DNA of 64,000 nt, from IMG/VR virus record IMGVR_UViG_3300014720_000021, positions 29,377 through 93,376 of that record; one strand, given 5' to 3'. Position numbers and translations under genes: made by a program. The notes beneath the pieces were generated by a model. That model searched no databases, was not told the origin of the DNA, and saw only the letters and a list, made by a program, of their open reading frames with translations. Origin of the DNA: a virus. Below, piece by piece: positions 5,246-45,921 of this stretch (positions within the stretch are counted from its first letter, which is position 1; each line of letters opens with the position of its first letter).

Positions 5246-5285
5246 GCCCTCATAATAACTAATGTTGATTAACTGTAATTTAAAC

Positions 5286-10788: not shown

Positions 10789-11481
10789 ATGGAAGATGTT
10801 AGAAAATATCTAAATAGGTCATCTAAGCCTTTAACTTCAAGTGTAATTAAAGATGATTTTATTGTTGCCAGTGAAAAGGCTTTTGATTGTATTTTTAATG
10901 GCACTTCAGAATTTTATCCATGGGAATTACCAGATGATGAGTTATTAAAGGATTTTTCTTTAGGTGTTATTGTTGGTGGTTCTGGAACAGGTAAATCCAC
11001 ATTGCTTAAATCGTTTGGGGATGAAGAAGTGCCCATATGGGGTGCCGATAAATCGGTGGTATCACACTTTAACTCCCCAGATGAAGCAATAAATAAATTA
11101 ATGGCCGTTGGTTTAAATACAATACCTAATTGGTATAAGCCATATCATGTTTTATCTAATGGTGAAAAATTCAGAGCTGACTTGGCGAGAAAGGTAAAGA
11201 ATAATGCTGTAATCGATGAATTTACCAGTGTTGTCGATAGAAATGTAGCAAAAGCTGCTAGTGTTGCTCTATCTAGATATGTGAGGAAGAACGATATCAA
11301 AAATGTTGTAGTTTCAACATGTCACCACGACATTGTTGATTGGTTAGAGCCTGATTGGGTGATTAACACAGATAGTGGTCATTTATATGACGGTTTTTTT
11401 TTATCCGACCAGAAATCAATCTCGAAATATATCGTGCAGACCATAGTGCGTGGGGAATGTTTAAAGACCATCACTATCTAA
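10789..11481 (+). CDS. ABC-type ATPase half of an ABC-GNAT protein
   Basis: About 230 residues from the ATG at 10789. It has Walker A GGSGTGKST near residue 65, an ABC-signature-like LSNGEKFR, and Walker B with catalytic glutamate in NAVIDEFTS, followed by a switch histidine region (STCHHD). There is no transmembrane domain, so this is not a transporter. ABC ATPases fused to an acetyltransferase domain are known (COG2401). Here the frame leaves the expected path at a run of nine T (11394-11402): reading on in the -1 frame gives IRPEINLEIYRADHSAWG and runs straight into the GNAT gene. The last 28 residues of this frame are therefore probably not conserved. Confidence 0.75.
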   Translation: MEDVRKYLNRSSKPLTSSVIKDDFIVASEKAFDCIFNGTSEFYPWELPDDELLKDFSLGVIVGGSGTGKSTLLKSFGDEEVPIWGADKSVVSHFNSPDEAINKLMAVGLNTIPNWYKPYHVLSNGEKFRADLARKVKNNAVIDEFTSVVDRNVAKAASVALSRYVRKNDIKNVVVSTCHHDIVDWLEPDWVINTDSGHLYDGFFLSDQKSISKYIVQTIVRGECLKTITI

Positions 11482-11873
11482 GTGGTGAGTTATCAAAAGC
11501 TTCTAGATGTTATATTGGGTTATTTGGTGGTGAAATTGTTGCATTTGGTGCCACAATAACAATGCCTAATGGTAATTTAAAAAATGCTTGGAGGGAGCAT
11601 CGAACAGTAATATTACCTGACTATCAGGGGTTTGGATTAGGTACTCGATTTTCAGATGCCATTGCTCAAATACATATAGACCTAGGACATAGATTCTTTT
11701 CAAGAACTGCCCATCCACGTTTTGGTTGGTATAGGGAACATTCGCCTTTATGGAAAGCTACATCAAAAAATAAGAAGCTTCGTACAGATATAAAACATGA
11801 TAATATCTTTAACAACCATTATGCTGATAATAAGCGAGTTTGTTTCAGCCATGAGTACGTAGGTGAACAATAA
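11457..11873 (+). CDS. GNAT acetyltransferase half of an ABC-GNAT protein
   Basis: 138 residues from the first ATG, but the frame is open upstream to the T9 run at 11394. The GNAT core is visible: a central strand (CYIGLFGGEIVAFGA), then VILPDYQGFGLGTRF, which is the acetyl-CoA-binding Q/RxxGxG/A loop, and a following helix. Relative to known ABC-acetyltransferase fusions this is the C-terminal domain. Either a programmed -1 slip produces the fusion, the pair works as two chains, or one T was lost from the sequence. Confidence 0.7.
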   Translation: MFKDHHYLSGELSKASRCYIGLFGGEIVAFGATITMPNGNLKNAWREHRTVILPDYQGFGLGTRFSDAIAQIHIDLGHRFFSRTAHPRFGWYREHSPLWKATSKNKKLRTDIKHDNIFNNHYADNKRVCFSHEYVGEQ

Positions 11874-11874
11874 T

Positions 11875-11905
11875 TTGGTAGTTTAGGAGTTTTTAACTAT
11901 ATTTG
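11875..11905 (+). promoter_or_regulatory. Host-type promoter
   Basis: TTG-N20-TATATTTG starting immediately after the GNAT stop codon, 27 bases before the transglycosylase ATG at 11932. Confidence 0.65.
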
Positions 11906-11931
11906 CTATCTAAACTTTAAATTAACTAATT

Positions 11932-33760: not shown

Positions 33761-36700
33761 ATGGCAAATAATAAAACAATATTTCAAACGCTTACCAATA
33801 TGTTCGGACCTTATGGTGTCGAACCAGAAAGGGTCAGTAAAAAATATTCATTAGGTAATTCTGAATTATTAAGGACTACCTCAAAAGAAGAGTATGAAAC
33901 TCAGAAATTACAAGCAAGACAAAATAAGTATTTAAGTAATCAATGGGTTAAGGTTGAAAACGAGATATTTCAAAAATCAATTCAATATGAGATAACTAGA
34001 ATAGGTGCATACTCCGATTTTGAAAATATGGAGTTTTACCCTGAAATTGCAGCAACTTTAGATATTCTTATGGAGGAATCCACAACGGTTAACGATATTG
34101 GTAGGGTTTTAAATATATATTCTGAAAGTCCTAGAGTTAAGGGTATTTTGGAAGACCTTTTCTTCAATCGATTGGATGTTCATGTTTCTTTACCTATGTG
34201 GATAAGAAACATGTGTAAATATGGTGATAATTTCTTATATCTCAATACTGATGATAAGAGAGGTGTAACTGGTGTTAAACAATTACCTAATTTTGAAATT
34301 GAGCGTAGAGAAGGTGGTATTTATGATGTTGTTAGTGCAAACTTAAATGGTGTTGAAAGGGGTAGTAATAAAGATGATAAAGTAAAGTTTTTCTGGAGGG
34401 GTCGAGATTTAGAGTTTATGAATTGGCAAGTTGCACATTTTAGACTATTAGGTGATGACAGAAGATTACCATATGGCACGTGTTTAAAAGGTGATACTAG
34501 AATTAATACCGAATTCGGTGTCGAGGAAATTAAGGACATTAAGGTCGGAACCAAAGTTTGGTCATTTAACACTAAAACGCAAGAAAAAGAGTTGTCACCA
34601 ATTTTAGATAAAATAATGTCTGGTACTAAAGAAGTATTTAAAATTTCAACAAGACATAATTTTATTGATGCTAGTAAAGAGCATAAAATTTTAGTTGCTA
34701 CTGAATTTGGTGAATTTATCTATAAAAATGTTTGTGATTTAAAAATTGGGGATTTACTGGTATTAAATAAAAATGAGCATACCAACAAAACGATATTAAT
34801 TGATAAAAGTAACCCACTTGAAAATAAAAATGGGTGGTTTAATAACATTAATCACATACCAGATATTGTTACTGAAGAATTTGCACAATTATTTGGTTTT
34901 TTAATTGGTGACGGTTGGTTAACGTCAAATAATTCTTGTGTTGAATTTGCTTTAGGTACTGACTCGGAAACCAATAATTTTTATATTTCATTGTTAGAAA
35001 AGTTTTCTGGACATAAAGTTGTGGTGGGGGATAAACAAGTGACATTACGTTCTAAATTATTAAAAACTATTTTAGAAAGAATGGGGTTTTTTGGTAAATC
35101 CCATGAAAAAAGAATACCTAGTTGGGTGTTTGAAATGGGGGTTGATTTACAAAAAGCGTTTGTCGCTGGATTAATGGACGCTGATGGTTGGGCAACTAAA
35201 GACCAATGGGTTATTGGGTTACATATTGAATTAAATAATAAACCATTAATTGAAGATTTAAAAATATTATTACAAAGAATTGGTTACAAATCAGGCTCGA
35301 TTAGAAGTCGAGTTAGGAAAGAGCCGATTATTGAGGGTAGGCAGATAAAAAATGTTAAAGAAAGCCACATAATCACATTTTTTGATTCATATTTAACACA
35401 AATGAAAAAATATGAATTTAAAAATAGAAAAACTGATAATTTTATTTTAGAACCAATACAGAGTATTGAATCAATCGGTAATCATAATACATATGATATA
35501 TATGTTGAGAACAGTAACCATAATTTTTATGCAAATAATGTTGTTGTACATAACTCAATCTTGGAAAAGGCTAGGCGTATCTGGAAACAACTTCTTCTTT
35601 CAGAAGATGCGATGTTAGTGTATCGTGTTACTAGAGCACCAGAGAGACGTGTTTTTAAAGTTTATGTAGGTAACATTGACGATGAAGATGTTCAACCATA
35701 CGTTAATGAAATTGCTAATAGATTTAAACGTGCCAGTATAATTGACCCAAAAACAGGACAAATTGATTTGCGTTATAACCAATTGGCAAATGACCAAGAT
35801 TATTTTATTCCTGTTAGAGAAGAGGGTGCGGCAACACCTATTGATACTTTACCAGGCGCGTCAAATTTGTCAGATATCGCAGATATTGAGTACCTCCAGC
35901 GCAAATTATTTACGGCATTACGTGTACCAAAAGCCTTTTTGGGTTTTGACGAACCAAAAGGCGAGGGTAAGAATCTAGCGTTGTTAGATATTCGTTTTGC
36001 AAGAACAATAAATAGAATTCAACAAGCAGTTTTACAAGAACTTAATAAAATAGCTATTATACATTTAGTTTTATCTGGTTTAGAAGACGAAATAGATAAT
36101 TTCACAATTACTATGAATAATCCGTCAACACAATCAGAGATGTTACGGATTCAAAATCTTCAAACAAAGGTTACTTTGGTTAAGGACGCTACTTCGGATA
36201 TTGGTAATGGTTTCAGTGTAATGTCATTAACTAAAGCTAGAAGAAGTATTCTTGGTTGGAGTGATGAGGAATCTAAACAGGATTTCCTTGAACAGCGTAT
36301 GGAAAAAGCTGCTTCAGCTGAATTGGAAAACACGGCTAACGTAATTAAACACACTGGTATTTTTGATAAAGTTGATAAACTTTATGGTGATATTGAAGTT
36401 GCAAAACAAGGTGGTGCAGCACCTGAAGGTGGCGATGAAGCTGGTGGTCCATCAGGTGGTGGTGGCGGTGGCTTCGGTGGTGGCGGCCTAGGTGGTGGTG
36501 ACATCGACTTTGGTGCTGGTGATTTGGGCGAATTCGGTGAAGCTGAAGGTGAAACTCCTGAAGCTGGTGGTGAAACTCCTGAAGCTGGTGGTGAAATCCC
36601 TGAAGCTGGTGGTGAAACTCCTGAAGCTGGTGGTGAAACCCCTGAAGCTGGTGGTGGTGAAATTGCTGAAAACTTGGATAAGATAAGTAATTTATTGACT

Positions 36701-36919
36701 GAGAGGGCTGAATTGTTGACCAATGACCTTAGAGCTAAGACTAAAAAATATCAAACAAATTATTATAATAGGTTGGTTGAATCTTTGGATACCAATAGTC
36801 TTGAACAAAAAATATTAAATAACAAGGTTAAGGTTTTTGATAAAGGTTTAAAACTAAATGAGGAAATTGATTCAGTTTTAAGGGAAATTGATAAACTTTC
36901 AACTGACAAAGGTGAATAA
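33761..36919 (+). CDS. gp20-like: Portal protein (gp20-like) interrupted by an intein
   Basis: 1052 residues, of which 241-598 are an intein, leaving a 694-residue portal. Extein parts resemble T4 gp20: GDNFLYLNTDDKRGV, MNWQVAHFRLLGDDRRLPYG before the intein and SILEKARRIWKQLLL after it, then RVTRAPERRVFKVYVGN and PGASNLSDIADIEYLQRKLF. Portal is the dodecameric DNA channel at the head vertex and the docking site of TerL. Relative to T4 gp20 (524 aa) there is a C-terminal extension: a glycine-rich stretch, five GETPEAG repeats (about 930-964) and a terminal coiled coil. Splicing is needed for a functional portal. Confidence 0.9.
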   Translation: MANNKTIFQTLTNMFGPYGVEPERVSKKYSLGNSELLRTTSKEEYETQKLQARQNKYLSNQWVKVENEIFQKSIQYEITRIGAYSDFENMEFYPEIAATLDILMEESTTVNDIGRVLNIYSESPRVKGILEDLFFNRLDVHVSLPMWIRNMCKYGDNFLYLNTDDKRGVTGVKQLPNFEIERREGGIYDVVSANLNGVERGSNKDDKVKFFWRGRDLEFMNWQVAHFRLLGDDRRLPYGTCLKGDTRINTEFGVEEIKDIKVGTKVWSFNTKTQEKELSPILDKIMSGTKEVFKISTRHNFIDASKEHKILVATEFGEFIYKNVCDLKIGDLLVLNKNEHTNKTILIDKSNPLENKNGWFNNINHIPDIVTEEFAQLFGFLIGDGWLTSNNSCVEFALGTDSETNNFYISLLEKFSGHKVVVGDKQVTLRSKLLKTILERMGFFGKSHEKRIPSWVFEMGVDLQKAFVAGLMDADGWATKDQWVIGLHIELNNKPLIEDLKILLQRIGYKSGSIRSRVRKEPIIEGRQIKNVKESHIITFFDSYLTQMKKYEFKNRKTDNFILEPIQSIESIGNHNTYDIYVENSNHNFYANNVVVHNSILEKARRIWKQLLLSEDAMLVYRVTRAPERRVFKVYVGNIDDEDVQPYVNEIANRFKRASIIDPKTGQIDLRYNQLANDQDYFIPVREEGAATPIDTLPGASNLSDIADIEYLQRKLFTALRVPKAFLGFDEPKGEGKNLALLDIRFARTINRIQQAVLQELNKIAIIHLVLSGLEDEIDNFTITMNNPSTQSEMLRIQNLQTKVTLVKDATSDIGNGFSVMSLTKARRSILGWSDEESKQDFLEQRMEKAASAELENTANVIKHTGIFDKVDKLYGDIEVAKQGGAAPEGGDEAGGPSGGGGGGFGGGGLGGGDIDFGAGDLGEFGEAEGETPEAGGETPEAGGEIPEAGGETPEAGGETPEAGGGEIAENLDKISNLLTERAELLTNDLRAKTKKYQTNYYNRLVESLDTNSLEQKILNNKVKVFDKGLKLNEEIDSVLREIDKLSTDKGE
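34481..35554 (+). mobile_element. Intein with LAGLIDADG endonuclease in portal gene
   Basis: 358 residues. Cys1 at C241 begins the splicing block A (CLKGDTRINTEFGVEEIKDI); block B is around NFIDASKEHKILV (T-x-x-H-like DASKEH). Two LAGLIDADG-type motifs sit in the middle (LFGFLIGDGWL and FVAGLMDADGW). The C-terminal splice block reads YDIYVENSNHNFYANNVVVHN, ending His-Asn (N598) with Ser599 as the +1 nucleophile. All catalytic residues for protein splicing appear present. The insertion lies exactly between PYG-T and SILEKARR, a highly conserved portal site. Confidence 0.92.
36548..36652 (+). repeat. Five 21-bp in-frame repeats (GETPEAG)
   Basis: Five tandem copies of a 21-base unit encoding GETPEAG (third copy has Ile for Thr), near-identical at the DNA level, in the portal C-terminal extension. 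Expected to vary in copy number by slippage. Confidence 0.9.
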
Positions 36920-38643: not shown

Positions 38644-39369
38644 ATGATAGGTATGTCAAATAAATATAATATTATCCAACCTAATGTCTTAAGAGCCAAT
38701 GAAACTGGATTTGGTTATCTGATTGAGCATGACGCTGGTTATATCTCACCAGAAGACAAAAGAAATTTACCATTCATCAATGAGATGAAAAAACTTGAGT
38801 CTGGTGACCGAGTTATAACTGAACCATATTATGTCTATGCCGTGTTACAAAAATATGGTGTGAAGAATCGTAATGGTCGTGTCTATCCTGAAGACATTTT
38901 AAAAAAACAAGTCACAGTATATCAAAAATTAGTTGATGAGCGAAGAGCCATAGGTGAATTGGACCATCCAGATTCCACTGTAATTGCTGGTGATAGAGTA
39001 TCACACAATATTGTTGAAATGTGGTGGGAAGGTAATGTGTTGATGGGTAAATTGGAAATTCTAATGACACCAGGTTTTATTAACCTAGGAATTGCTTCAA
39101 CTCTTGGTGACCATGTTGGTAATCTATTAAGACATAAAATTAAAATCGGTGTCTCATCAAGAGGTGTTGGTTCCGTTGAAGATGTGCATGGTGTACAATT
39201 GGTACAAAACGATTTTGAATTGGTATGTTGGGATGTTGTTACAAACCCTAGCACCCCTGGTTCATGGATTTTTCAAGACATGAATAAGTCAAATGAATTC
39301 AAATCAGAAAAGATTAATGAGAATAAAAATAAAATAATTAAAGGTCTTGATGATTTCCTTTTGGGATAA
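38644..39369 (+). CDS. gp21-like: Prohead core protease (gp21-like)
   Basis: 241 residues (T4 gp21 is 212). The serine protease landmarks of this family are present: GELDHP with catalytic His108, and IGVSSRGVGS with the nucleophilic serine (171 or 172), preceded by EMWWEGNVLMGKLEIL. The second ATG (38653) gives better spacing from the promoter. The enzyme matures the prohead by cutting scaffold and capsid subunits after [I/L]-x-E; candidate sites lie in the neighbours (LTE60 of the capsid protein). Confidence 0.88.
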   Translation: MIGMSNKYNIIQPNVLRANETGFGYLIEHDAGYISPEDKRNLPFINEMKKLESGDRVITEPYYVYAVLQKYGVKNRNGRVYPEDILKKQVTVYQKLVDERRAIGELDHPDSTVIAGDRVSHNIVEMWWEGNVLMGKLEILMTPGFINLGIASTLGDHVGNLLRHKIKIGVSSRGVGSVEDVHGVQLVQNDFELVCWDVVTNPSTPGSWIFQDMNKSNEFKSEKINENKNKIIKGLDDFLLG

Positions 39370-39414: not shown

Positions 39415-39423
39415 ATATTTATA
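39415..39423 (+). promoter_or_regulatory. Late-type promoter before non-coding region
   Basis: ACATATTTATAAAC with no coding gene for the next 320 bases; it would transcribe the hairpin-rich region 39430-39701. Confidence 0.5.
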
Positions 39424-39429
39424 AACAAC

Positions 39430-39701
39430 AGCGTTCTTTGTTAAATTAATAATAAACATAATCAGAGCCTACCTTAACTGGATGTGCCAACCTGATTATT
39501 ATAACAATATCGTTCGGAACAAACGATTACAGACGTGGAGCAAAAATAAGTCCATTATAATTATAATGGCATAAGCAATGAAACGTTTAAAATTCTTAAT
39601 TAGATATATTTAATTAAGAAGCCCATATACAATAAAATGTATATAGGTAGTTCACAAACAAGTGAATGTTGCACATTTTTTGACTTTTCATAAAAGTGTG
39701 C
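39430..39701 (+). ncRNA. Candidate structured non-coding RNA
   Basis: No plausible coding frame in about 270 bases between protease and scaffold genes, and a late-type promoter at each end. Seven consecutive hairpins can be drawn: 39458-65/39492-99 (8 bp), 39509-14/39522-27 (6 bp), 39552-60/39561-69 (palindrome), 39593-602/39611-20 (10 bp perfect), 39622-31/39638-47 (9 of 10 bp), 39651-55/39662-66 (5 bp) and 39671-80/39692-701 (10 bp, one G-U). The stretch 39461-39590 is also noticeably less AT-rich than other gaps. No match to a known ribozyme, riboswitch or tRNA core was recognised. Confidence 0.45.
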
Positions 39702-39710
39702 ATATTTATT
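39702..39710 (+). promoter_or_regulatory. Late-type promoter for scaffold gene (ATATTTATT)
   Basis: GCATATTTATTTATAGG, 40 bases before the ATG at 39751 and touching the 3' arm of the last hairpin of the candidate RNA. Confidence 0.55.
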
Positions 39711-39750
39711 TATAGGTAAAAATAAAATTTTATATCCAACTATTAAAAAA

Positions 39751-41007
39751 ATGGAAAAAAACAAAAAAACAATTGCAGATGAAGCGCTAATGGACATTGA
39801 AGTCATTAAAGCAGCTTTAACAGAAAACGCAAAAGAAATACTTCGTTCTGTGACCAGAGAAGAAATTGATGATGTTATTAAGGAATCTTTAAATGAAGAA
39901 GATTTCGAAGAAGAAGAGGTAGACGCTGAAATGTCTGATGAAATGCCTGACGATGAGGAAGGTGCTGAAGACATGGAGGATATCGATGCTGACTCTGAAG
40001 GTGAAGAAGATGAAGACGACATGGAAATCACTGACGTTGAAATCGAAGATGAGCCTGAGAGTGAAGAAGACTCAGAAGATATGGGCGATATTGAAATGGA
40101 TATCGATGATGTTGAAATGGGTGATGATAGCGAAGAAATCGATTTAACAGATGCTTCTGACGATATGGTAATTTCTGTTTACAAGGAATTATCAGGTGAG
40201 GATGAAATTGAAGTTGTTGGTGATGAGATTCACTTAAACGTTTCTGAACCAGGTGAGTATATCCTAAAACCAAAATCCGCTGGCATCGATATGGATGCTG
40301 ATGTTGAAATGGATACCATAGCTATGGAAGAAGAGGAGATGGAAGAAGGGATGTACAACGAAGGTGAAGAAATGGATGAAGTTGTTTACGAAGTTTACAT
40401 GGATGAAGAAGAAACTATGGAAGAATCTTACGAAATGGATGAAGAAGAAACAATGGAAGAAGGTGAAGAAGTTATGGAAGAAGAAGAAATGATTGATGAA
40501 AAAATCAGAGTAAACCATGTACAAGGTAAACAAGCTGGTAATGAACATCAACCAAAAGTTCTTGGAGCTAAAAACCTTAAAGAATCAAAGACTTCAGAAT
40601 ATGAAAAATTGTTGGCTGAAGCAAACAAACTTAAGAAAGAAAATGAATTGTTCAAGCAGAACCTTTCAACTTTCAGAAAGATGTTGGCTGAAACAGCAGT
40701 TTACAATTCAAACCTCACAAACGTAACAAGAATTTTCTTGGAGCATGCAACAACAAAATCTGAAAAGCAAGCAATTATCAAGAGATTCGATGATGAAGTT
40801 AAGACAGTAAAAGAATCAAAAGCTCTTTATAAAAAGATTGTTGGTGAACTTGGTTCAAAACCATCTTTGACCGAGAGTGTAAGTAATGTTGATAAAAACA
40901 TGACTTCAGGTTCTTCAAATCTTAATTCTCAAACTGCTTACGTAGATAATGAAACTTCTCGAATCAAAGAATTGATGGAGAGAGTTGAAGGTAGAAAGTT
41001 ACTATAA
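39751..41007 (+). CDS. gp22-like: Prohead core scaffold protein (gp22-like)
   Basis: 418 residues. Position between protease and capsid genes is that of T4 gene 22. Residues about 48-255 are very acidic and Met-rich (E/D repeats such as MEEEEMEEG), then a lysine-containing coiled coil (about 285-345, EYEKLLAEANKLKKENELFK) and a final helix ERVEGRKLL. Scaffolds of this type fill the prohead and are degraded by the gp21 protease before DNA packaging. Longer than T4 gp22 (269), mainly because of the acidic segment. Confidence 0.75.
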   Translation: MEKNKKTIADEALMDIEVIKAALTENAKEILRSVTREEIDDVIKESLNEEDFEEEEVDAEMSDEMPDDEEGAEDMEDIDADSEGEEDEDDMEITDVEIEDEPESEEDSEDMGDIEMDIDDVEMGDDSEEIDLTDASDDMVISVYKELSGEDEIEVVGDEIHLNVSEPGEYILKPKSAGIDMDADVEMDTIAMEEEEMEEGMYNEGEEMDEVVYEVYMDEEETMEESYEMDEEETMEEGEEVMEEEEMIDEKIRVNHVQGKQAGNEHQPKVLGAKNLKESKTSEYEKLLAEANKLKKENELFKQNLSTFRKMLAETAVYNSNLTNVTRIFLEHATTKSEKQAIIKRFDDEVKTVKESKALYKKIVGELGSKPSLTESVSNVDKNMTSGSSNLNSQTAYVDNETSRIKELMERVEGRKLL

Positions 41008-43000: not shown

Positions 43001-44722
43001 ATGGGTAAGAAAGTCATACTAAGCGATAAAGATATATCTGATATTATCAGACTATATAAAGATGATACAATTGGTGTTGAATCGTTGGCTAAGAAGTTTA
43101 ATGTTGGTAAATTAAAGATAAAGTCAGTTTTAACGGAAAATAATATACCAATTAAAAAACGTGGCGCTCAAACAACCGTTGGTAACAGTTCAGAAATTGA
43201 AAAATCACATGTTATTATGTATGAAACAAATAATGTTGATAAAAAATTAGTTGCTATATGTAAAATAACTGATACAGTTTTTGAAGATGTGAATAATCGT
43301 TCAGGGGCATTAACCAATCATATTTTATCAACATATGGTGATGTTCCAATACCAACAAATACATATCAACGAAAAAAATATGAAAGAGAGTATGGTAAAA
43401 AATGGTTTGAAGAGTATTTTGATATTAAAGAAATAGATAAACCTAAAACGAGAAAATGTAAGTTATGTGATTGGGAAACCGTAGATATTGATAATAATTC
43501 TGGTAGTTTTGAACAGCATTTGGTCAATAATCATAATATTACATTATTAGAATATCTGGAGGGTTTTCCTGAAGACATTAAATACCATTCAAAATATGAT
43601 AAACTAAAACACAGATTAAACCCCAATAATCATATTATATGTAAGGTATGTGGTAAAAAAATGGGTTATTTAACAGCGACACACTTATCTACACACAACT
43701 TGACTTTAACTGACTACAAGTTAAAATATCCTAAAAGTGACGTATTATCTAACGAATATAGGGATAATTTAAAAGAGCGTTATGATGAACATTTAAAACA
43801 TTACGAACCAACTTACTCAACTAAGCCACAGGAGGAAATTTATGAATATATTAAAAGTTTAGGTTTTAAAGTTAAAAAGAATGATAAAACACTATTAAAC
43901 GGTACCGAAATAGATATTTTAATGAAGGATAAGCTCATTGGTATCGAATACAATGGTTTATATTATCATAGAGAAGGTATGGGTAAAGATAGAAACTATC
44001 ATTTAACTAAAACTAAATTAATGGAAAGTTGTGGTTATAGTTTGATACATATATTTGAAGATGAATGGTTAAATAACAAAGATTTAATTCTTAACAAGAT
44101 TTCACACTTACTGAATGTTAATAATATGAAGTCAATAGGTGCCAGAAAATGTAATATAAAACAAATAGACGCATATATTAAATCAGATTTTTTAAATACC
44201 AATCATATTCAAGGTAATGATAACTCAAACATTTATTATGGTGCATATTATGACAATATATTAGTTGCTATTATGTCTTTTACAAATAAAAGGAGTATGA
44301 ATGGTAAATCTGATAGTTATGGTGAATATGAATTATCTAGATTTGCAACGAATATTAACTATAGGGTCGTTGGTGTCGCTGGTAAGTTATTAAAACGATT
44401 TATCAAAGATTATCAACCCAATAATATAATAAGTTTTGGTGATAGGCGATGGGTGCTTAACGGTGAAGAAAATATGTATACTAAATTAGGTTTTAAATTG
44501 ACCAAGACTTATTCACCAGATTACAAATATTATAATCCTAAAATAGCCAAAAATAAACGTTTTCATAAATTTGGTTTTGGTAAATCGTCTTTAAGAAAGA
44601 AATATCCAGAGTTGGATTTCACAAAGACTGAGAAAGAGTTGATGACTGAATTGGGTTATGATAGAATTTGGGATTGTGGTTTATTCAAATATGAACTCAT
44701 ATTAAATGGTAACCAACAATAA
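43001..44722 (+). CDS. Free-standing homing-endonuclease-like protein
   Basis: 573 residues. N-terminal helix-turn-helix (about 6-50, SLAKKFNVGKLKIKSVL); two C2H2-like modules (about 147-175, CKLCDWE...HLVNNH; about 212-232, CKVCGKK...HLSTH); a Vsr/EDxHD-type nuclease region (about 272-370) with TEIDI, LIGIEYNGLYYH, Y-H-x-x-K-T and SLIHIFEDEW; then a GNAT-like C-terminal region with YELSRFATN and SFGDRRW. This matches large phage homing endonucleases related to very-short-patch-repair nucleases. Such genes spread by cutting alleles that lack them; location beside the capsid gene is typical. Confidence 0.75.
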   Translation: MGKKVILSDKDISDIIRLYKDDTIGVESLAKKFNVGKLKIKSVLTENNIPIKKRGAQTTVGNSSEIEKSHVIMYETNNVDKKLVAICKITDTVFEDVNNRSGALTNHILSTYGDVPIPTNTYQRKKYEREYGKKWFEEYFDIKEIDKPKTRKCKLCDWETVDIDNNSGSFEQHLVNNHNITLLEYLEGFPEDIKYHSKYDKLKHRLNPNNHIICKVCGKKMGYLTATHLSTHNLTLTDYKLKYPKSDVLSNEYRDNLKERYDEHLKHYEPTYSTKPQEEIYEYIKSLGFKVKKNDKTLLNGTEIDILMKDKLIGIEYNGLYYHREGMGKDRNYHLTKTKLMESCGYSLIHIFEDEWLNNKDLILNKISHLLNVNNMKSIGARKCNIKQIDAYIKSDFLNTNHIQGNDNSNIYYGAYYDNILVAIMSFTNKRSMNGKSDSYGEYELSRFATNINYRVVGVAGKLLKRFIKDYQPNNIISFGDRRWVLNGEENMYTKLGFKLTKTYSPDYKYYNPKIAKNKRFHKFGFGKSSLRKKYPELDFTKTEKELMTELGYDRIWDCGLFKYELILNGNQQ

Positions 44723-45513: not shown

Positions 45514-45921
45514 TTAGATTATATAATATATCTGTTTACCATTTGAATGCTCATAATAGATTTCATTACCATTAATATCGTATTTATGTTTAGCCCAATA
45601 TCCATTTGAATGCTCAAAATAGATTAAGTTACCATTAGTATCATAATCACGTTTATCCCAATATCCTTTTGAATCCTCATAATAGATTACATTACTATCG
45701 GAATCATAATCACGTTTTTCCCAAAATCCATTTGAATACTCACAATAGATTCTGTTACCATTAATATCGTATTCACGTTTTTCCCAATATCCATCTGAAG
45801 TCTCAAAATAGATTTCATTACCATTGGTATCATATTCACGTTTATACCAAAATCCAGTTGAAGTCTCACAATAGATTTCATTACCATTGGTATCAAATTC
45901 TTGTTTTATAATTTCACTCAT
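45514..45921 (-). CDS. YD-repeat-like protein of six 20-residue repeats
   Basis: 135 residues built almost wholly from about six copies of a 20-residue unit, YDxNGNxIYxExSxGxWxKRx. This is reminiscent of RHS/YD repeats, which form beta strands wrapping in a sheet or cage. There is no signal peptide and no toxin domain. Overlaps the next gene upstream by four bases. The repeat purity suggests recent expansion; proteins of this kind are also seen as free-standing binding proteins, so the partner is unknown. Confidence 0.65.
   Translation of the reverse strand: MSEIIKQEFDTNGNEIYCETSTGFWYKREYDTNGNEIYFETSDGYWEKREYDINGNRIYCEYSNGFWEKRDYDSDSNVIYYEDSKGYWDKRDYDTNGNLIYFEHSNGYWAKHKYDINGNEIYYEHSNGKQIYYII
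45537..45905 (-). repeat. Six imperfect 60-bp tandem repeats in coding sequence
   Basis: The 60-base unit (20 codons) can be followed on the + strand by the phrase ATAGATT(T/A)... recurring every 60 bases (cartooned by TAGATT at about 45558, 45618, 45678, 45738, 45798, 45858). Copies differ at many third positions, so selection has kept the protein repeat. Confidence 0.8.

Follow-up and report, generated by a model that had tools for sequence, protein, structure and literature searches.

A gene-free insertion in the head module of a T4-like phage is very probably the omegaRNA of a TnpB element standing without tnpB

The guide RNAs of TnpB are usually regarded as being cut out of the transcript of the tnpB gene that shares their element. 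ISDra2 inserts 3′ of the T-rich pentamer TTGAT, which is its TAM, without target duplication, and its RNA of about 150 nt is joined to a guide of about 16 nt from the flank (PMC8612924). This omegaRNA (reRNA) is the 3′-terminal RNA of the element and ends in ..GTTCAC before the flank guide (PMC8612924, PMC10097598); in its published structure the GAA in the loop of stem 1 forms a pseudoknot with a 3′ UUC, and besides inner stems there is a stem 4, which UUUA closes (PMC10097598). Phage-borne guide RNAs of the TnpB family are also found in TldR systems, where a supply in trans has been suggested for one locus, in which tldR is broken (PMC13418256). The locus described here resembles ISDra2 in its RNA, in the homologous TnpB of its sister loci, and in its insertion 3′ of a T-rich pentamer, which is TTTAT instead of TTGAT. 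However, it has no tnpB in cis and no LE hairpin, it carries an extra 5′ domain, and it stands behind a phage late promoter. From the TldR systems it differs in having neither a tldR gene nor a defined target.

The window, the whole stretch of 64,000 nt that was analyzed, is part of a 93,376-base IMG/VR virus record and contains a T4-like head module with genes for the portal (PF07230, with an intein), the prohead protease (38644-39369, PF03420), a scaffold-like protein (starting at 39751), and the major capsid protein (PF07068). The portal gene (33761-36919; Intein_splicing 6.5e-15, LAGLIDADG_3 6.1e-08) also encodes a GGETPEAGGE-type repeat near the C-terminus, and an ORF on the minus strand at 45514-45921 consists of tandem repeats of the type YDTNGNEIYxExSNGxWxKR. 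A sequence-only reading had described 39415-39751, between protease and scaffold, as a hairpin-rich candidate RNA lying between two late-type promoters, and had suggested a role in packaging or head assembly, a regulated leader of the scaffold gene, or a riboswitch- or ribozyme-type element. What it said about the DNA itself was largely borne out. The stretch holds no plausible gene, the only ORF touching it being antisense, 143 aa long (39600-40031), and mostly the complement of the scaffold gene. The late-promoter motif ATATTTAT is present on the + strand at 39415-39422 and again at 39702-39709, and it can be taken as a genuine signal because the gaps 5′ of the window genes contain 12 sense and 0 antisense copies against 1.5 expected. 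The fold is far from chance, with a minimum free energy of −60.4 kcal/mol for 39450-39710 compared with −37.9 ± 3.9 kcal/mol in shuffled sequences (z −5.8, 0/200), and a z of −4.6 for the whole of 39415-39751. The perfect stems of 10 bp (39593-39602/39611-39620) and 8 bp (the palindrome CATTATAATTATAATG, which forms the middle hairpin) are also there.

The remark that spare DNA is unusual at this place was right as well. Searching with the protease brought up 39 related viral contigs, in 21 of which the protease-scaffold gap is fully readable, and in all 21 it measures 97-147 nt, whereas it measures 381 nt in the window. The nearest relative (L001), whose protease is 92% identical, has a gap of 147 nt, a difference of 234, and its promoter, terminator-like hairpin, and second promoter align with both flanks in the window. 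The comparison delimits an inserted element of 233 nt without a protein gene (39423-39655, + strand), located directly 3′ of TTTAT (39418-39422, + strand), the last five bases of the upstream ATATTTAT, which are the insertion target and presumably the TAM. This promoter is shared by L001 (as CATATTTAT) and by most relatives. Since AAACAA occurs at either side of the insert, its left edge can be placed only to within 6 nt. In L001, TTTAT is followed by 20 bases of which 18 are identical to the right flank in the window, and a scan for the uninserted junction matched the contig of L001 only. Judged from these alignments, the extra DNA between protease and scaffold is a recent insertion, since so close a relative as L001 is without it. 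The terminator-like hairpin (39671-39701, + strand) and the second promoter (39702-39709), which serves the scaffold gene, are ancestral and lie outside the insert; both are found in L001, and the promoter also in other relatives. The last hairpin of the earlier reading is this ancestral one, and the RNA unit comprises 39433-39655 and not the whole of 39415-39751.

These comparisons also bear on the roles that had been proposed. The position between protease and scaffold and the strong fold would suit a conserved RNA for packaging or head assembly, or else a regulated leader, and a structured RNA within a phage head module recalls the pRNA of phi29. However, the RNA is absent from the protease-scaffold position in all 21 complete relatives and was not found in the records of 11 relatives of the window (up to 142 kb), the scaffold gene is still preceded, 3′ of the insert, by a conserved promoter of its own, and the same RNA occurs at unrelated loci. 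Unlike phi29 pRNA, to which it is not homologous, it is thus no conserved part of the module. A conserved head-module function is refuted, so that any such role could only be a new one in this one phage; taken together, we regard such roles as highly improbable. Both the packaging RNA and the scaffold leader were rejected for want of conservation at the site. As for a riboswitch or ribozyme, comparing the window, the interval, and also the long-form copies described below with Rfam gave nothing meaningful, with no hit at the gathering score and only chance-level hits at E≤10. A tRNA or tmRNA was considered and likewise rejected.

The identity of the insert came from its copies elsewhere. An 18-mer of the insert matched five viral contigs at unrelated genomic positions, and its 3′ end (39618-39655, + strand), which consists of GAAGCC, a hairpin, and GGTAGTTCAC, is the right end (RE) of tnpB-bearing IS200/IS605 elements (L060-L066; for example, GAAGCCCAACCATCTTTAGTGGTTGGGTAGTTCAC). 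The anchor AAGCNAYGAARCGT...GTAGTTCA recovered copies in which an intact tnpB runs with its 3′ end into the RNA core, and a third anchor scan brought the total to 23 contig stretches. Full-length TnpB is encoded next to the RNA in L076 (=L077), L082, L089, L092, L094, and L095, in each of which the omegaRNA core overlaps the tnpB 3′ end, and L083 holds a tnpB fragment only. The TnpBs scanned carry OrfB_IS605, Cas12f1-like_TNB, and HTH_OrfB_IS605 domains, and that of L095 aligns over residues 8-403 with the solved ISDra2 TnpB (8bf8, 8ex9, 8h1j; E=1.6e-64). A covariance model of the core (R1) matches the window at 39501-39654 (+ strand) with 111.9 bits (E=1.5e-21), the window being among the 19 training sequences. 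The model also matches Parabacteroides phage PF672P2, which lies outside the training set, at the 3′ end of its tnpB (55.6 bits, E 8e-11) and, more weakly, other IS605 tnpB loci (L056-L058, L064-L066). The PF672P2 gene (L128, OP172820.1, 1962-3206; WAX17164.1) is annotated as hypothetical and is a TnpB with a 3′ omegaRNA. Conservation ends at GTTCA(C/T) in nearly all copies and is followed by a variable flank, the presumed guide. We consider it very likely that the insert is the omegaRNA of an ISDra2-like IS200/IS605 TnpB element, standing without tnpB.

No tnpB is present in cis, either in the insert or in the 93-kb record, where neither TnpB nor TnpA was found, the record being incomplete; nor was an HTH_OrfB match found in the records of the 11 relatives. 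A location in cis with tnpB is the usual situation but not a property of the RNA, hence we speak of a TnpB-less variant. Searches of named phages and plasmids by BLASTN with the module or the insert gave no match or chance-level pieces, and four matches to a gapped pattern (L050-L053) were rejected by eye as chance hits. In 84,980 bacterial and archaeal genomes, two scans with exact patterns, which only near-exact cores could match, found no copy. The distribution suggests that this lineage of omegaRNA may be restricted to phages.

The structure is compatible with that published for ISDra2. In an alignment of 19 copies, 95% of cells are paired in the consensus structure, and 21 of 37 pairs show changes on both sides; the covariation score is 0.52, compared with 0.21 ± 0.014 in shuffled alignments (0/500) and 0.06-0.12 in slid versions. 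Stem 1 (39509-39527, + strand; both sides change in four of eight pairs) carries a conserved GGAAC loop (39516-39520), which reads GGAAC or GGGAC across copies. The GAA of this loop can pair with the 3′ UUC in all 19 copies (100% of cells compatible), as in the ISDra2 RNA, although this pseudoknot is nearly invariant and thus draws no support from covariation. Stem 2 (39531-39536 with 39583-39588, + strand) encloses a variable middle hairpin (39550-39570), and within this covarying feature (39531-39588) 96.5% and 87.7% of cells are paired. The perfect 10-bp stem TTCTTAATTA/TAATTAAGAA (39593-39620, + strand) changes on both sides in all four of its modelled pairs over the 19 copies, and the right-end hairpin has a UUUA loop in many copies. 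On the other side, 2 of the 37 modelled pairs are broken, which counts against the explanation favored below. Under a stricter score than that of the 19-copy test, the TnpB-less copies alone are still 94% paired, with a covariation score of 0.45 compared with 0.11 in shuffles (0/300), so the pairing is not merely a by-product of coding. The proposal of a real structured phage RNA is hence upheld, and compensatory changes do exist, although in copies at other genomic positions and not in the orthologous interval of relatives.

Besides the window, at least 15 further viral contigs contain the omegaRNA without tnpB. Such copies are those of L041 (=L044), L042, L043, L045, L073, L074 (=L075), L078, L081, L086 (=L090), L087 (=L088), L091, and L093. 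Records G023 and G029 contain five and three hits of the model, respectively, and no HTH_OrfB domain was found in them. The counts are minima, because elements with several copies are expected to break assemblies; contigs L079, L080, L084, L085, L087, and L088 end inside the element. A 5.9-kb contig (L132) holds two long-form orphan RNAs (47-70 and 5261-5284), one of them cut by the contig end. The copies in L043, L045, L086, and L093 are compact elements of about 300 nt, without genes, that consist of LE, RNA, and RE and share the LE hairpin, the RE hairpin, and the TTTAT target. In this they are like non-autonomous IS200/IS605 derivatives (MITE/PATE-like), but their interior is a conserved, covarying guide-RNA scaffold and not decayed filler. 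The contig of L045, besides its orphan omegaRNA, contains at 11041-11914 an IS200-type TnpA (PF01797) along with the beginning of a divergent TnpB (PF12323), which is truncated where the contig ends.

A long form (L073, L074, L078, L125, L129-L133) starts with GTTCTTTGAT behind a promoter-like sequence; most of its copies continue with a variable hairpin, then GCCTACC..GGATGTGCCAA, then the omegaRNA. The motif [GC][TC]TCTTTG is present in 11 of 11 long-form TnpB-less copies examined, copies that were anchored on the same motif. A scan with GCCTACC..GGATGTGCCAA returned ten viral stretches, and the omegaRNA adjoins the motif in the four already known and in all six new ones; none of the tnpB-bearing copies fetched contains it. 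A shorter version of the 5′ domain is retained by L041 and the window; in the window it starts with the boxA-like GTTCTTTG (39433-39440, + strand) and continues with a helix ATAATCAG/CTGATTAT (39458-39499, + strand) around the motif (39467-39490). Copies differ on both sides of the helix that closes it (CAG/CTG, CAT/ATG, CGG/CCG). In Rfam and the literature searched, we found no description of this conserved domain. The boxA antitermination element is a binding site of NusB/S10. Its consensus in gamma-proteobacteria is GYTCTTTAANA (PMC5725501), from which GTTCTTTGTTA of the window deviates by two mismatches and GTTCTTTGATA of L131 by one. Compared with boxA leaders, the likeness of GTTCTTTGA at the start of this untranslated RNA is one of a short sequence match only. 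A boxA function is putative; a guide RNA that is not translated might well profit from antitermination.

The target site can account for the place of the insertion. Among 12 sister elements that share one LE type, 11 have TTTAT exactly 10 nt before the LE hairpin, and this pentamer is also part of the late-promoter motif of the phage group to which the window belongs. The copy in L042 follows CGATATTTAT between two genes, right behind a late promoter, and here the window provides the empty site, with the same promoter and without the insert. A usual LE hairpin is present in L042, L043, L045, L086, and L093 but is not recognizable in the window copy, which is therefore probably no longer mobile; recognizable LE is also lost in L041 and L091. 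The RE hairpin is present in the window copy. The flanks look repeated, with AAACAA at 39423-39428 and 39656-39661 in the window and ATACAAAG on both sides of the L041 copy, which is at odds with a plain IS605 insertion that makes no duplication. Among relatives, TATTTAT(T/A)AnCAAA is a frequent form of the late promoter, and the repeats may reflect this consensus standing on both sides, or recombination between promoters that moved both copies.

These observations could also be read as those of a domesticated phage RNA, an orphan guide behind late promoters that works in trans with TnpB or a nuclease-dead TnpB-like protein and attacks competitors or regulates genes. The copies of the window and L042 lie directly behind late promoters, in L091 the motif closely precedes the RNA, recognizable LE is gone in three of the copies, and the trans supply suggested for the TldR locus offers a precedent. 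Moreover, in L041 and L091 the RNA precedes the same tail gene, the proteins being 65% identical, and the two appear to share one position over a long divergence, although they may be two independent insertions. However, as TTTAT belongs to the promoter motif, proximity to promoters can be a by-product of target choice; the guides are merely flanking DNA, a protein partner was not found, and the RE hairpin of L091 is degraded. We consider domestication unlikely. Relatives of a REase_MTES_1575 / ROS_MUCR protein encoded beside the capsid gene in the window (43001-44722), possibly a free-standing homing-type nuclease, are also located close to the orphan RNA in L041 and L091 (40-41% identical).

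The main rival is an inert relic, in which the same omegaRNA insertion would be a dead passenger, read by no TnpB, whose structure survives through its youth. The missing LE hairpin, the failure to find TnpB or TnpA in the incomplete record, and the recency of the insertion, as indicated by L001, all speak for this. Against it are the pairing and covariation kept across the TnpB-less copies as a group, the dedicated 5′ domain conserved among diverged TnpB-less copies, and the presence of the RNA in front of one tail gene in both L041 and L091, a persistence which, as far as the sequences go, argues against the whole TnpB-less family being dead. We regard a relic as less likely than not.

We therefore suggest that the locus is best explained overall as a TnpB-less IS200/IS605-type insertion that makes a guide RNA for TnpB acting in trans (probability of about 0.75). 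A non-autonomous element containing only an ISDra2-kind omegaRNA and an extra 5′ domain would have inserted between protease and scaffold, on the 3′ side of the TTTAT in the late promoter there. Late transcription from 39415 would pass through the element into the flank, and a TnpB from another element of the same phage, a co-infecting phage, or the host would bind the RNA and trim its 5′ side. The flank from 39656 would then serve as the guide, presumably the 16 nt of AAACAAGTGAATGTTG (39656-39671, + strand), going by the L001 empty site and the flank guide of about 16 nt in ISDra2. The ribonucleoprotein would cut the uninserted allele (TTTAT followed by AAACAAGTGAATGTTG...), and inserted genomes would consequently be favored. 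Two of 20 positions, one of them the TAM-proximal base, differ between this flank and the only known empty allele, that of L001, which speaks against such use. The insertion, its empty site, the homology to the RNA of intact tnpB genes, the RE, the covariation, and the TTTAT target of sister elements are shown by the sequences; transcription, supply of TnpB in trans, guide use, and drive are what we infer here, and we give such a working of the window RNA about an even chance. A wider proposal, that of a phage-specific family of orphan TnpB guide RNAs with a boxA-like leader, 5′ domain, and omegaRNA, expressed partly from late promoters and working in trans with TnpB or TnpB-like proteins, is rather doubtful at present. 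If it is true, these RNAs form a decentralized guide-RNA system that promotes its own spreading and perhaps shuts out relatives when phages infect together.

What appeared to be a mystery RNA of the head module is thus explained by a transposon insertion in a late promoter, with TTTAT as the target site. A TnpB-less family with a covarying scaffold and a conserved 5′ domain suggests guides that act in trans, a step reminiscent of how guide RNA and nuclease are separated in CRISPR-Cas12. This poses a testable question: do phages carry guide-RNA elements whose nuclease comes from something else?
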